Shown: positions 35,729 through 42,003 of the stretch, one piece after another
How positions within the stretch are numbered: the first letter of the stretch is position 1
Layout: every line of letters begins with the position of its first letter
Program-made: the position numbers and the translations under genes
The notes under the pieces: generated by a model
Databases searched by the model: none
What the model was told of the DNA's origin: nothing
Seen by the model: only the letters and a program-made list of their open reading frames with translations
Source: Bacillota bacterium
Lineage (GTDB): Bacteria > Bacillota > Sulfobacillia > Sulfobacillales > Sulfobacillaceae
NCBI GenBank assembly: GCA_023511625.1
Contig: JAIMBD010000011.1
Location: 1 to 64,000 of the forward strand
Direction: 5' to 3'
DNA length: 64,000 nt

Positions 35729-36385
35729 CTATCGGCCAAAGGCGCGGGCGGATTTGGTCCGGGTCTGGGTCCACTCGGCGAAGCGATGGAGGTCGGCCCA
35801 CGGCCGTACCACGATGCGGCCCTCCTCCACCCGGGCAAATTCCGGGCGGCCTCCCCCCTGGTCGTTGATGGCCCACACCTCGCCGACGCGAATTTGTATC
35901 GGCGAAAGGTCAAGGGCGTAGATGGCCCGCCCGGCATCCTTGGGCTGCCCGGCAAAGGCCTTGCCCAGGAGGCGGCCAAAGACGTAGATGTCCCCCCCTG
36001 CCACCAGGTCGGCGCCGGGGTTGACGTCGCCCACCACCATCAGGTCGCCGGAGTGGCTGATGCGCTGCCCCGAGCGTACCGTGCGCCGCACCACCAAGGG
36101 CGCGGGATTGCGGCTGCGGCCATTGAAAGGAATGGGCACCCGTCGGTCGGCGTCGAGGCGCACGCCCCCCAACGTCAGTTTGGGATACCGTTGGAACACC
36201 TCGGCAATGGCCTGTAACAAGGCCGGAGTCAGCGCGAGCCCCTGCACGGCCACTTCCAAGCGCGCCTCCCCCAAAAAACGGGCCCGTGCTTCCAACGTCG
36301 CCACTAAGTCGGCCAAAAGCTCGGCCTCGCTGCGGTATCCATCTGCTACCAGCGTCAGTCCCCCGCGGTCGCCCTTGAGCTCCAC
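35729..36385 (-). CDS. minC: septum site-determining protein MinC
   Basis: A 218-residue FtsZ inhibitor that blocks division at cell poles when recruited by MinD. The N-terminal domain (about 1-100, ELKGDRGGLTLVADGYRSEAELLADLVATLEARARFL) is followed by a linker (RNPAPLVVRRTVRSGQRISHSGDLMVVGDVNPGADLVAGGDIYVFGRLLGKAFAG). That is the MinC beta-helix signature with its GDVxxGAxVxAGGDIxVxGxLxGxAHAG pattern; here the final part is LLGKAFAG. C-terminal YALDLSPIQIRVGEVWA also fits. GTG 36385 has AGGGGGGCGAAGG upstream. No minD is in the window. The divergent neighbour is a MerR/coiled-coil protein. Confidence 0.88.
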   Translation of the reverse strand: MELKGDRGGLTLVADGYRSEAELLADLVATLEARARFLGEARLEVAVQGLALTPALLQAIAEVFQRYPKLTLGGVRLDADRRVPIPFNGRSRNPAPLVVRRTVRSGQRISHSGDLMVVGDVNPGADLVAGGDIYVFGRLLGKAFAGQPKDAGRAIYALDLSPIQIRVGEVWAINDQGGGRPEFARVEEGRIVVRPWADLHRFAEWTQTRTKSARAFGR

Positions 36386-38342: not shown

Positions 38343-39056
38343 TCAAGGGGGTTCGATGACCACCACCCAGCCGCCGTGCTCAAGCCGCCGCTCGCGCACC
38401 CGGCCGCCGGCGGCCAGCCAGGCCTGGGCTTCGGCCGGAGCGAGCGCTTCGGCACGGGGGCCGAGGTAGCGAGTCGACCGCGGCGCTGCGGGCACCGGAG
38501 GCGGTGTCGGCAGGGGCGCAAAGTGTGGCAGCCCGCCGGCCCAATCCCCCAAGCCGTCGAGGTGCCAGGGCAGCGGGAGGTCGGCGGCCTTGAGCCAGTG
38601 CCGAAGGCGGGCAAGACGCTGGGGTCCCCCGCATGCCACCACCCAAAGGCCGGCCAGCCCGAGGTGGGGCCGTTGGTAGGCCGCGAGCTTCTCCTCCCAC
38701 TGGCGGCGCGATTCCTTGCCGGCATCGACCTCGAGCCCGATGGGGCGGCCACCGCCCGGAGGGATGATCTCCGCGTCAGGGCGGGGCCAACGTTGCGGGT
38801 CGGGGACCGTCCACTGCCCGCGCTGGGGGCCCAGGCGCAGGTAGACCTCGGCCACCAAGAGGCGGTGGGTGCGCCGCGCCCCGCGACCGAAGCGGCGCGG
38901 ATCCCACACCGCTTCCCGAAACACCACCGCGGCCTTCGAGACCTCGGCCAGGTCCAGGGTGTCGCCGTAGTACCGGGCGATCTGATCGAAGGAGAGGACG
39001 CCTACGGCGGTCAGGGCTTCGGCCCAGGGCCAAGGAGGCAGGGCAGCCGCCATCAT
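38343..39056 (-). CDS. PD-(D/E)XK-like, replication-relaxation-type protein paired with a VirD4-like ATPase
   Basis: A 237-residue protein. The N-terminus looks like a winged HTH (FDQIARYYGDTLDLAEVSKAAVVF, about 23-46). The centre holds PDAEIIPPGGGRPIGLEVDAGKESRRQWEEKLAAYQRPH, where D94, E109, D111, E115 and K123 make a restriction-endonuclease-like D-x(n)-ExD...K arrangement, as in replication-relaxation (RRF) proteins. The second part (about 185-237) is Pro/Ala-rich. Its ATG overlaps the ATPase stop in an ATGA motif, so the pair is coupled. RRF-like proteins usually accompany conjugation ATPases on mobile elements, yet no relaxase or secretion genes occur here. Nuclease activity is inferred, not shown. 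Confidence 0.6.
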   Translation of the reverse strand: MMAAALPPWPWAEALTAVGVLSFDQIARYYGDTLDLAEVSKAAVVFREAVWDPRRFGRGARRTHRLLVAEVYLRLGPQRGQWTVPDPQRWPRPDAEIIPPGGGRPIGLEVDAGKESRRQWEEKLAAYQRPHLGLAGLWVVACGGPQRLARLRHWLKAADLPLPWHLDGLGDWAGGLPHFAPLPTPPPVPAAPRSTRYLGPRAEALAPAEAQAWLAAGGRVRERRLEHGGWVVVIEPP

Positions 39057-40522
39057 GGGGTCGACTCTGCGCCAAGCCGGTGGTGGGGAAGGCGCACCAC
39101 CCGCGGCGGCTCAAGCCGCCCCTGCCGCGTGCACTGTACCACGGCCAGACCGCGGGGCAGGTAGCGGGGGGAAACCGGCAGGCGATGCGGGGCGGCCTGC
39201 GCCTCAAGCCACTGACAATCGTGCGGGGACAAGCCAGACAGTGCCACCCGCTGGCGGGCATTGGCGCCCAGTGCGGCCTGAAGGGGAGCCGAAAGCTGCC
39301 CCATGTCTTGATGGGCCAGGATCAGGCCCACGCCGTAGCCGCGGGCCAAGGCCAGAAACTCGTTGAGATCTGGACTGACGTACTGGTGGAACTCGTCGAG
39401 GTAGAGGAAGTAAGGCCGGCTGGCCATAGGTCGCCGATAGGTGGCCAACATCAGCCCGTGCCACCACAGCACGCCGAGGGCCCGGGCCGAGGCACCCAGA
39501 CGGGCGGGCGACAGCGGGGCCAAGACCGTCCACCCTTCCTTGAGCACCGTGTCCCAGTCAAAGTCGCTGGGCGGGGCTAAGACCCGACTAAGATGCGGGT
39601 TGGCCAGCAGCAGCTCCAGCCGGTGCAACAGGCCCGATTGGGTCTGGGCTTGGGCGTCCGCCCGCCATTGACCCCACTGTTCGCGGAAGTATTCGCGGGT
39701 GGCCGGATCGGCCTTTGCCAGACATTCGCGGCGCCACTCTGGGCGGCGGAGGAAGCGGACCAGCCCTAAAAGGTCTGCCGCGTCGCCCAAGGCCGCTTTC
39801 AAGGCGCGCACGGCGTATAACAACAGCACGCGGCTGGTGGCGGCGTAATACGGGTGGCCCGGCTCTTGGAGCTGGAGGAGGGCCCAGTCCAGCCCCTCGG
39901 CGGCCGCCTCGGCCGGCCCTGTCAAGGGATTCCAATGGGGACAAGCCTCCGCTTCGGGATCCAGCCACAGGAAAGGACGCCCGTGCCGGCGCGCCGCCGA
40001 CCGCGCCGCACCGGCGAGGTCGCCTTTGGGTTCGATGAGGGTCAACCCCAGCCCTGCGGCCAGGTCTTGGTCGATCAGCGGGAGCAAGACCCCCGAGGAC
40101 TTACCGGATCCGGTCGGGCCGATCACATGGCAGTGGAGCAACCGGTCCTCGGCGCTTACCGTCACCGGGATTCCCCACAGCGGGTCGGTTCCGAAGGCTA
40201 AGGTTCCCGGTCGGGCGGCGACGCGGCGCTGGAGCCACCAACGGGCCACGGCCGCCGCCACGGCGGCCGCCGCGAGCGTCCAGCGCGGCCAAGCGAGTGG
40301 CCAAAGCCAAAGCCCGACGGCCCAGCGCCACATCGGGCGGGGGACGATGAGCGCGCCCAAAGCCGTCAGGCCTACCGCGAGGCCCCACCGCCAGACCTCG
40401 GGGACGGCTTTGGGCAAGGTGTTGGTCCAGGCTAACAACCCAAGCCATCCCGACATCGCGGCCCACGCCGCGATGAGGGCCGGGCGACTTAGGCGGATGA
40501 TCCACCGGCTGATCGTCCCCAT
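39053..40522 (-). CDS. VirD4/TraG-like (HerA-FtsK superfamily) membrane ATPase
   Basis: A 489-residue protein with four N-terminal hydrophobic helices (about 14-95). A P-loop motor domain follows: Walker A GPTGSGKSS (135-143), LIEPKGDLAG, WLDPEAEACPHWNPL, Walker B FLYLDEFH (D376, E377), and the sensor region AHQDMGQLSAPLQAALGANARQRVAL with TraM-recognition character. This is the architecture of type IV coupling proteins that pump DNA across membranes. The gene is isolated from any relaxase, VirB or integrase gene. ATG 40522 has GGAGGA upstream. It is translationally coupled to the nuclease-like gene, suggesting a two-protein DNA-processing or translocation system. Confidence 0.82.
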   Translation of the reverse strand: MGTISRWIIRLSRPALIAAWAAMSGWLGLLAWTNTLPKAVPEVWRWGLAVGLTALGALIVPRPMWRWAVGLWLWPLAWPRWTLAAAAVAAAVARWWLQRRVAARPGTLAFGTDPLWGIPVTVSAEDRLLHCHVIGPTGSGKSSGVLLPLIDQDLAAGLGLTLIEPKGDLAGAARSAARRHGRPFLWLDPEAEACPHWNPLTGPAEAAAEGLDWALLQLQEPGHPYYAATSRVLLLYAVRALKAALGDAADLLGLVRFLRRPEWRRECLAKADPATREYFREQWGQWRADAQAQTQSGLLHRLELLLANPHLSRVLAPPSDFDWDTVLKEGWTVLAPLSPARLGASARALGVLWWHGLMLATYRRPMASRPYFLYLDEFHQYVSPDLNEFLALARGYGVGLILAHQDMGQLSAPLQAALGANARQRVALSGLSPHDCQWLEAQAAPHRLPVSPRYLPRGLAVVQCTRQGRLEPPRVVRLPHHRLGAESTP

Positions 40523-40626
40523 GGGTTCCTCCGTGCTGGGCGCCGTCTCCTTCGGACTGCCTTCTCGGGGAGAGTTCGGGGCGGATCGGCGGGATCCTGC
40601 ATTGGGGGCCTATGAAGTGCGCCCCC

Positions 40627-42003
40627 TTATGACCAGCGGATGGCACCCACCTCCGGGAACCGCCGAAGCTCGCGGTCCAAGATGGCGACGATCGCGTCGA
40701 GTTCTGGGGCCGTTTGGGCTTCGGCCCGGGCGACCAGGGCCGGCTGGGTGTTCGATGCCCGCACGAGGCCCCATCCAGCCGGAAACTGCACCCGGACGCC
40801 GTCCACATCGATCACCGGTAAGCCCAACTGGTCCCGGAAACGCCGGGTGAGTTGGGCGACCACTTCAAATTTGCGGTCGTCCGGGCAGTCGATGCGCACC
40901 TCGGGTGTGGCCGGCAGGTCGGGCACGTCGGCCAGGAGGGAAGACAAGGGGCGACCCTGGCGGGACATGAGGCGCAGCAGGCGGCCGGCGGCGTAAAAGG
41001 CGTCGTCGAAGCCGAAGTACTCGTCGGCGAAGAACATATGGCCCGACATCTCGCCGGTGAAGGGGGCGTTGAGCTCTCGCATCTTGGCCTTGATGAGCGA
41101 GTGCCCGGTTTTGTAAAACAAGGGGCGCCCGCCCAGGCGCGCGATCTCGTCGTACAGCGTCTGGCTGCACTTGACTTCCACGATTCCCCAAGCGCCCGGG
41201 TAGCGGGGCAGGATCTCGCGCCAGTACAACACCATCAAGCGATCGCCCCAAAGGATGCGGCCGGTGTCGTCGACCACCCCGATGCGGTCGCCGTCGCCGT
41301 CGAAGGCAAGACCGAGGTCGGCCCGGGACCGCGTCACTGCCGCGACCAGGTCGCGCAGGTTTTCGGCCACGACCGGGTCGGGATGATGGTGGGGAAAGGT
41401 AGGGTCGACAGTGCAGTAGAGGTAGTCGGCAGACACGCCGAAGGCCTCCATCACCTGCCGCACAAAGCGGCTTGGAGTCCCGTTGCCGCAGTCGACCACC
41501 ACCCGCGGGCGAAACGCCTCCAGTTGGATCTTCTCGCGCAGCATCGCCAGGTAGCTCGGCACGGGGTCCTCGTGCCGCACGACGCCGCTGCCTCTGGCAA
41601 ACCTGCCGGCTTGCCACAGGCGGGCCACGGCTTGAATCTCCTCCCCATACAGGGTAGAAGGGCCGTGGGCCAACTTGAACCCGTTGTACTCCGCCGGGTT
41701 GTGGCTCGCGGTGACCATCACGCCGCCCTGAAAGCGGTAATGGTGGTAGGCGTAGTAGAAGATCGGCGTCGTCACCTCGCCGATATCGAGCACGTCCACC
41801 CCCGAGTGGGTCAAGCCGTCGATCAAGGCGTCGCGCAAGGCCGGTGAGGAGCTGCGGGAATCCCACCCTACAATGGCCTCGCGCACGTTCTTCTCCCCGA
41901 GGTACGTGGCGAACGCCTGTCCCAATCGGCGCACGTCCTCGCTGTCGAAATCCTTTCCCACCACTCCGCGGATGTCGTACTCGCGAAAGATGTTGAGATT
42001 CAT
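40627..42003 (-). CDS. manB: phosphomannomutase/phosphoglucomutase
   Basis: A four-domain alpha-D-phosphohexomutase, 458 residues. Active-site serine loop TASHNPAEYNG (about 98-108), metal loop FDGDGDR (about 233-239), sugar-specificity loop GEMSGHMFF (about 315-323) and the C-terminal phosphate loop RASNTQPALVAR are all intact. GEMSGH is typical of dual PMM/PGM enzymes such as AlgC. It could supply mannose-1-phosphate for GDP-mannose (mannosyltransferases at 31.8-34 kb) or glucose-1-phosphate for UDP-glucose (SQD1). ATG 42003 follows AGGGAATCTC. It is upstream of the ATPase gene on the same strand but 105 nt apart. Confidence 0.93.
   Translation of the reverse strand: MNLNIFREYDIRGVVGKDFDSEDVRRLGQAFATYLGEKNVREAIVGWDSRSSSPALRDALIDGLTHSGVDVLDIGEVTTPIFYYAYHHYRFQGGVMVTASHNPAEYNGFKLAHGPSTLYGEEIQAVARLWQAGRFARGSGVVRHEDPVPSYLAMLREKIQLEAFRPRVVVDCGNGTPSRFVRQVMEAFGVSADYLYCTVDPTFPHHHPDPVVAENLRDLVAAVTRSRADLGLAFDGDGDRIGVVDDTGRILWGDRLMVLYWREILPRYPGAWGIVEVKCSQTLYDEIARLGGRPLFYKTGHSLIKAKMRELNAPFTGEMSGHMFFADEYFGFDDAFYAAGRLLRLMSRQGRPLSSLLADVPDLPATPEVRIDCPDDRKFEVVAQLTRRFRDQLGLPVIDVDGVRVQFPAGWGLVRASNTQPALVARAEAQTAPELDAIVAILDRELRRFPEVGAIRWS

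Follow-up and report, generated by a model that had tools for sequence, protein, structure and literature searches.

A coupling-protein and MOBC-type relaxase-like gene pair of Sulfobacillales and its probable part in chromosomally encoded DNA transfer

The ATPase and the relaxase-like protein

Two genes on the minus strand lie side by side within the window, the whole 64-kb stretch of DNA analysed (1–64000). An ORF check places the gene for a 489-residue ATPase at 39053–40522 and that for a smaller protein of 237 residues at 38343–39056; the two reading frames overlap by 4 nt via ATGA, as the earlier note on this DNA had stated. The ATPase is single-copy in the window's own genome, and a search of the whole window found no tRNA or tmRNA gene. 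Also on the minus strand, and given here as context only, are a phosphomannomutase-like (PMM) gene (40627–42003), found next to the pair or close by in most of the order's genomes, and a MinC-like gene (35729–36385), a neighbour of the pair in most Sulfobacillales and likewise in a further family of the class.

An AlphaFold2 (AF2) model of the ATPase (mean pLDDT 91) contains a P-loop core preceded by N-terminal helices at residues 3–32, 42–59, 63–77 and 79–103; this membrane region (residues about 3–103) is encoded at 40214–40516. The Walker A motif, GPTGSGKS (residues 135–142; 40097–40120), has G135, P136, T137, G138, G140 and K141 invariant in an alignment of 33 homologues, and in the Walker B motif (39392–39412), which ends in D376 and E377, the residues D376, E377 and F378 are invariant in the same alignment. 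The helices at 204–315 in the model suggest an all-alpha domain. Two Pfam families, T4SS-DNA_transf (3.7e-7) and TrwB_AAD_bind (4.6e-5), are matched above their cut-offs. A Foldseek search of the PDB with the model, made as a check for a coupling-protein fold, returned the conjugative coupling protein TrwB as top match (6.3e-13), followed by Cag-beta (2.1e-12), with HerA-NurA and HerA lower; in a PDB search by sequence, DotL was the only match. The membrane ATPase with four N-terminal helices and Walker motifs proposed from the sequence is therefore borne out by Pfam, AF2 and the alignment. With its Walker A/B P-loop, its match to the TrwB/TraG family and its TrwB-like fold with a membrane domain, the protein is a compact VirD4-type coupling protein.

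The only Pfam match of the small protein is to Replic_Relax (PF13814; 5.8e-5), at 23.7 bits just under the cut-off of 25.3, which is passed by the orthologues from related families at L099 (47 bits) and L106 (41 bits). Comparison of a profile of the small protein with PF13814 proteins of mobile elements gave an E-value of 4e-6, and a further profile comparison gave 3e-9. Across 30 homologues, H64, D94, E109, D111, G113, E115, W120, K123, Y127 and R147 are invariant. These residues take in the whole D-ExD-E-K array to which the earlier note had drawn attention (D94, E109, D111, E115 and K123), and a signature of the form H..PD..ExDxGTE..K..Y is shared by the orthologues in further families of the class and by PF13814 proteins from other phyla, including one that adjoins ArdA and a serine recombinase.

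The AF2 model of the small protein (mean pLDDT 91) begins with helices at 11–18, 23–30 and 36–39 and strands at 44–46 and 49–51, a helix-helix-helix-strand-strand unit which, from the order of its elements, we read as a putative winged helix (residues about 11–51; 38904–39026). The core, in which H64, D94, E109, D111, E115 and K123 are invariant (38688–38867), comprises a helix at 62–79, strands at 81–83, 95–98 and 106–111, a helix at 117–126 and a strand at 136–141. Checked for a nuclease fold, the model is thus PD-(D/E)XK-like, its core matching the helix, three-strand, helix, strand order of those nucleases, with ExD in the place where (D/E)xK is usual. Foldseek matches are weak, the best being DdmD (E-value 0.019), with Can2, BamHI and OkrAI also returned; several of these we take to be PD-(D/E)XK proteins. 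A PDB search by sequence gave unrelated chance matches only.

In CONJscan, PF13814 stands for MobC (PMC5357655), and a review (PMC12857230) describes MOBC relaxases as related to PD-(D/E)XK enzymes and pAD1 TraX as having a restriction-endonuclease fold with an N-terminal winged helix. The small protein, too, combines a winged-helix-like region with a core of restriction-endonuclease type and an array of metal ligands. No intact mobC reading frame was visible in the CloDF13 reference record; PF13814 proteins of Actinomycetota and Chloroflexi loci served as the yardstick in place of CloDF13 MobC. On account of the shared signature, the profile comparison and the literature on the MOBC fold, the protein is best called a MOBC-type relaxase homologue, with nicking activity predicted from its sequence. 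The earlier statement that no relaxase lies nearby consequently fails, the partner protein being the relaxase homologue itself. No plasmid match was obtained for the small protein or for the PF13814 protein of L117, and neither the repeats near the pair nor the upstream alignments that we examined contain a convincing oriT. In one genome (G017; L056:9254–9862) the relaxase-like gene aligns only from about residue 53 onward, and seems either to have lost the N-terminal winged helix or to carry a frameshift.

Conservation of the pair across Sulfobacillales

When the same pair was sought in other genomes and its neighbours recorded, the two genes were adjacent and on the same strand in all 30 homologous pairs examined, 14 of them with the 4-nt overlap, so the pairing is not due to chance. 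The order ThrE-ThrE-MinC-[small protein-ATPase]-PMM-GNAT-DegP is kept across Sulfobacillales, in a further family of the class MinC is still the neighbour of the pair, and the conserved neighbourhood contains no integrase. Both genes are under purifying selection, with dN/dS values between close species of 0.06–0.10 for the ATPase and 0.08–0.35 for the small protein. Related named records, from Sulfobacillus thermotolerans, S. benefaciens, S. harzensis and metagenome-assembled genomes, mark the group, and by extension probably the window, as acidophiles of Sulfobacillales type.

The ATPase is present in 35 of 42 genomes of the order. True absence was considered for three of the negative genomes and rejected: G006 has the gene truncated at the end of a contig, and G007 and G012 yield only a distant best match for the neighbouring PMM, so that the region of the pair is apparently unassembled in these two. 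The remaining four are 59–71% complete.

Outside this setting, a relative within the class (L069; G057:C53:1–14500) encodes an ATPase 45% identical in a different neighbourhood. Four Actinomycetota loci (L117:9155–15926, L122:11–6051, L115:9248–18246 and L118 from 8033 onward) have the arrangement VirD4-Replic_Relax-(ArdA)-HTH-M78-serine recombinase, the families having been named on L117 only, and probably represent a family of integrative mobilisable elements.

A second locus with T4SS and Tad-like genes, and shared upstream motifs

A second syntenic locus encodes, in order, a T4SS_pilin protein, TrbL_4 (VirB6-like), a PrgI-like protein (VirB3-like), an N-terminal piece of VirB4, the VirB4 ATPase, a SAF-domain protein, an unknown protein, a TadA-like T2SSE protein and two T2SSF-like proteins; the PrgI, SAF and T2SSF matches lie below the Pfam cut-offs, which the pilin of L137 and the TrbL of L130 pass. 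Upstream lies a conserved block that we take to be nuoKLMN. In the window's own genome the locus occupies about G000:C26:28974–36662 (L130:4475–12163), with the N-terminal part of VirB4 as a separate gene. Of 19 genomes of the order that were mapped, 18 have pilin, TrbL and VirB4 side by side, mostly with the PrgI-like and Tad-like genes; in the remaining one, G035, VirB4 is present and the map gives no clear arrangement. This hybrid T4SS/Tad locus appears to be conserved throughout Sulfobacillales, which hold a chromosomal, vertically inherited set of VirB2-, VirB4- and VirB6-type genes, and those further families of the class in which the pair is found have versions of the locus as well. Among its genes we recognised none of VirB8-like or cell-wall hydrolase type.

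The core VirB4 was found in 40 of 42 genomes of the order by searches with NF045971 and a profile of our own. These replaced PF03135, which gave no match in 46 genomes and was judged insensitive, a VirB4-like gene of S. thermotolerans being published. Most genomes of the order contain the core VirB4 alone, and some Sulfobacillales have further copies. In the window's own genome a second, divergent VirB4 (L148; G000:C37:133500–145725), whose N-terminal part is again encoded by a gene of its own, likely belongs to an ordinary ICE or plasmid-derived T4SS; the ICE-like copy falls outside the core VirB4 group.

The pair and the second locus are unlinked and lie far apart in complete chromosomes, for instance at 2.67 and 1.74 Mb in that of G023. 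The orphan status described in the earlier note holds only for the immediate surroundings: these chromosomes have conserved VirB-type channel genes at another site, and with the core VirB4/T4SS locus accompanying it the pair is no orphan. The earlier note's mark of a simple ICE remnant, a constant place beside relaxase/T4SS genes, has to be put differently, the small protein being the relaxase homologue itself and the T4SS conserved but unlinked. Among 154 genomes of the class, 59 contain the ATPase, 56 of them together with VirB4 at E ≤ 1e-20 and three with a divergent VirB4; 13 have VirB4 only and 82 have neither. These counts are descriptive, as they include some mobile-element copies and the genomes are related and not independent.

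The regions upstream of the two loci share motifs. In one genus a 14-bp block upstream of the ATPase is conserved amid diverged DNA and occurs once per genome, and G023, G017, G029, G020, G009 and G031 each have a single copy of TGTCGAATWTTGTC, in every case immediately before the ATPase. Our first idea, that TGTCGAATWTTGTC is a bind site, was set aside, since tandem Spo0A boxes combined with a sigma-H -10 element are the better reading; it may alternatively be a relaxase operator or bind site. The block upstream of the ATPase has the form TGTCGAA, N3, TGTCGAA, i.e. tandem 0A boxes (core as in PMC3485338), and overlaps a promoter of sigma-H type (consensus as in PMC4754846 and PMC8510167). Tandem 0A boxes with at most two mismatches were found upstream of 8 of 31 ATPase genes, 11 of 26 pilin genes and none of 694 controls; the pattern comes mainly from the ATPase side, and the pilin side is a near-independent test in which some upstream regions had already been viewed. 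A sigma-H-like pattern precedes 21 of 31 ATPase genes versus 10 of 694 controls, an enrichment that is partly post hoc, the pattern having been loosened after the ATPase regions were viewed. In some genera both motifs are faint or absent. One of the genomes with weak motifs is the window's own, which has a candidate sigma-H-type promoter (AGGA-N16-CGAA; 40575–40598, minus strand) upstream of the ATPase. Spo0A itself was found in 32 of the 34 genomes of the order searched, including this one.

Evolutionary distances of the ATPase and VirB4 are correlated across 21 genomes (r = 0.86; partial r 0.75, Mantel p 0.001), versus 0.61 for the adjacent PMM and 0.65 for MinC. In matched subsets of 9–11 genomes, the unrelated control NuoN gave a partial r of 0.37 versus 0.50 for VirB4, and NuoM 0.12 versus 0.46; these controls weaken the specificity of the correlation, which is not clearly specific.

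Function, alternatives and related systems

Conjugation machines usually belong to mobile elements. A fixed pair together with an equally fixed channel locus suggests instead that these bacteria own a DNA-transfer machine. We consider it more probable than not that the pair supplies the coupling protein and the MOBC-type relaxase of a conjugation-type machine which Sulfobacillales inherit vertically (a 'domesticated' one); nicking, an oriT, assembly from two loci, transfer and its direction are the parts of this reading that we infer. It draws on gene content, homology, synteny, selection, co-occurrence and the shared upstream motifs, and supports the earlier suggestion of a DNA-translocation device. 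In such a machine, the winged-helix/PD-(D/E)XK protein would use its winged helix to attach to a chromosomal site and would nick one strand, which the ATPase, as a membrane hexamer, would receive and feed into a channel built by the second core locus from the VirB2-like pilin, the VirB3-like protein, VirB4 and VirB6/TrbL. Pilin and a Tad-type pilus could provide contact between cells, genes of the machine would be transcribed in step with the Spo0A/sigma-H transition-state programme, and transfer of DNA between kin would be a function of the host. Export seems the more likely direction, given that both a coupling protein and a relaxase-like protein are present.

A wider proposal, which we offer tentatively as something short of probable, is that the core genome of the whole order includes a conjugation machine that is complete, from coupling protein and relaxase to pilin, VirB3/4/6 and Tad pilus, and regulated by the host, used for programmed exchange of chromosomal DNA at the Spo0A/sigma-H transition and convergent with archaeal Ced/Ups in similar hot, acidic habitats.

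The alternative that survives best, though we think it unlikely, is a device for DNA import or repair, in which both loci would act in the recipient to pull in and process incoming DNA, as in archaeal Ced, and the nuclease would trim the imported strand. Ced and Ted are VirB2/VirB4/VirB6 machines, of which Ced imports DNA (PMC9905601); like the genes described here, theirs are chromosomal and fixed in a lineage of thermophiles, and in Sulfolobales there is a further link to a distinct type IV pilus (Ups). Sigma-H promoters drive the competence operons of Listeria (PMC4754846), and sigma-H-like sites precede the ATPase. However, Ced and Ted lack a recognisable relaxase homologue (PMC9905601), whereas in Sulfobacillales, which are bacteria, a MOBC-type nuclease and a TrwB-like VirD4 coupling protein are retained in the core genome and Tad-like genes stand in the same locus; Ced and Ted respond to UV induction, in contrast to the Spo0A/sigma-H-like sites found here.

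Considerably less probable is that the pair is a fixed mobilisation module serving resident plasmids, IMEs or ICEs with a matching oriT. A VirD4-type coupling protein encoded with a PF13814/MOBC-type protein is indeed a known kind of module, found in CloDF13 as MobB-MobC (PMC7431656) and in the streptococcal IME_Class_8 (PMC5357655), and for these as for the present pair the T4SS must come from elsewhere. Actinomycetota relatives beside ArdA and a serine recombinase, and the additional VirB4 copies of some Sulfobacillales, point the same way. Unlike those modules, the Sulfobacillales pair lies off mobile elements, without integrase or replicon, and is fixed and syntenic, and a second fixed locus holds the T4SS. 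The core VirB4 is, moreover, the only one in most of the order's genomes, and order-wide fixation under strong constraint is hard to square with service to parasites.

We give an equally low probability to a defence pair, in which ATPase and nuclease would together destroy invading plasmids or phages as HerA-nuclease systems do, an option the earlier note had raised and for which positive support has not emerged. A membrane ATPase does adjoin a PD-(D/E)XK-like protein, the P-loop region of the ATPase matches mad8 in padloc (4.7e-14, the best such match), and the small protein has its weak structural similarity to DdmD (E-value 0.019). Defence genes, however, are typically patchy in distribution, and this pair is near-universal, syntenic and vertically inherited; its ATPase is closer to TrwB than to HerA, it co-occurs with T4SS channel genes, and its conserved neighbourhood contains neither other defence genes nor HerA- or MADS-type partners.

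Many T4SSs export proteins, and the T4SS/Tad locus might likewise be a system for protein secretion or adhesion that exports proteins recruited by the pair, the nuclease fold being no longer catalytic. We regard this as very improbable: the metal-ligand array is invariant in 30 homologues, and the residues of the MOBC-type signature are invariant in other families too. Most T4SSs of Patescibacteria do lack a relaxase and are thought to be co-opted (PMC12102498). Their conserved, chromosomal systems resemble that of Sulfobacillales in being of monoderm type with VirB4 and VirB2-like pilins, but relaxases are rare among them (109 in 103 genomes; PMC12102498), whereas here the MOBC-type pair is core. 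Finally, although homologous pairs occur in putative IMEs of other phyla, the earlier suggestion that the pair is the leftover of an integrative or mobilisable element is contradicted by order-wide synteny, intact active sites, strong purifying selection (dN/dS 0.06–0.35) and the lack of an integrase in the conserved neighbourhood, and can hardly be correct.

For the DNA-transfer machine that we favour, the nearest precedents are archaeal Ced/Ted, with no recognised relaxase (PMC9905601), and the Patescibacteria T4SS, with its rare ones (PMC12102498). What is new is that a whole order has the pair fixed in its core genome, that a T4SS/Tad locus, likewise core but unlinked, goes with it, and that the two apparently share control of Spo0A/sigma-H type. 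If this reading is true, a bacterial order used in bioleaching has a conjugation machine that retains relaxase and coupling protein under apparent sporulation or transition control, which could account for gene exchange among acidophiles and would make it genetically testable whether cells, besides plasmids, own conjugation.

Two mobile systems bear comparison. The Thermus TdtA-NurA transjugation system of ICETh1 also encodes a DNA-donation ATPase with a nuclease and moves chromosomal markers (PMC5365140); unlike the present pair, it resides on an excising ICE, uses the competence system of the recipient and has no T4SS locus. The conjugative plasmids and integrated plasmid of S. thermotolerans (pL15, pY0017, Kr1) resemble the core locus in combining VirB4-like with TadA/B/C-like genes, but they are mobile and carry a relaxase (MOBP named) and a TraG-like protein (PMC6803676). 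The second VirB4 of G023, which scores far below the core VirB4, is probably this plasmid copy.
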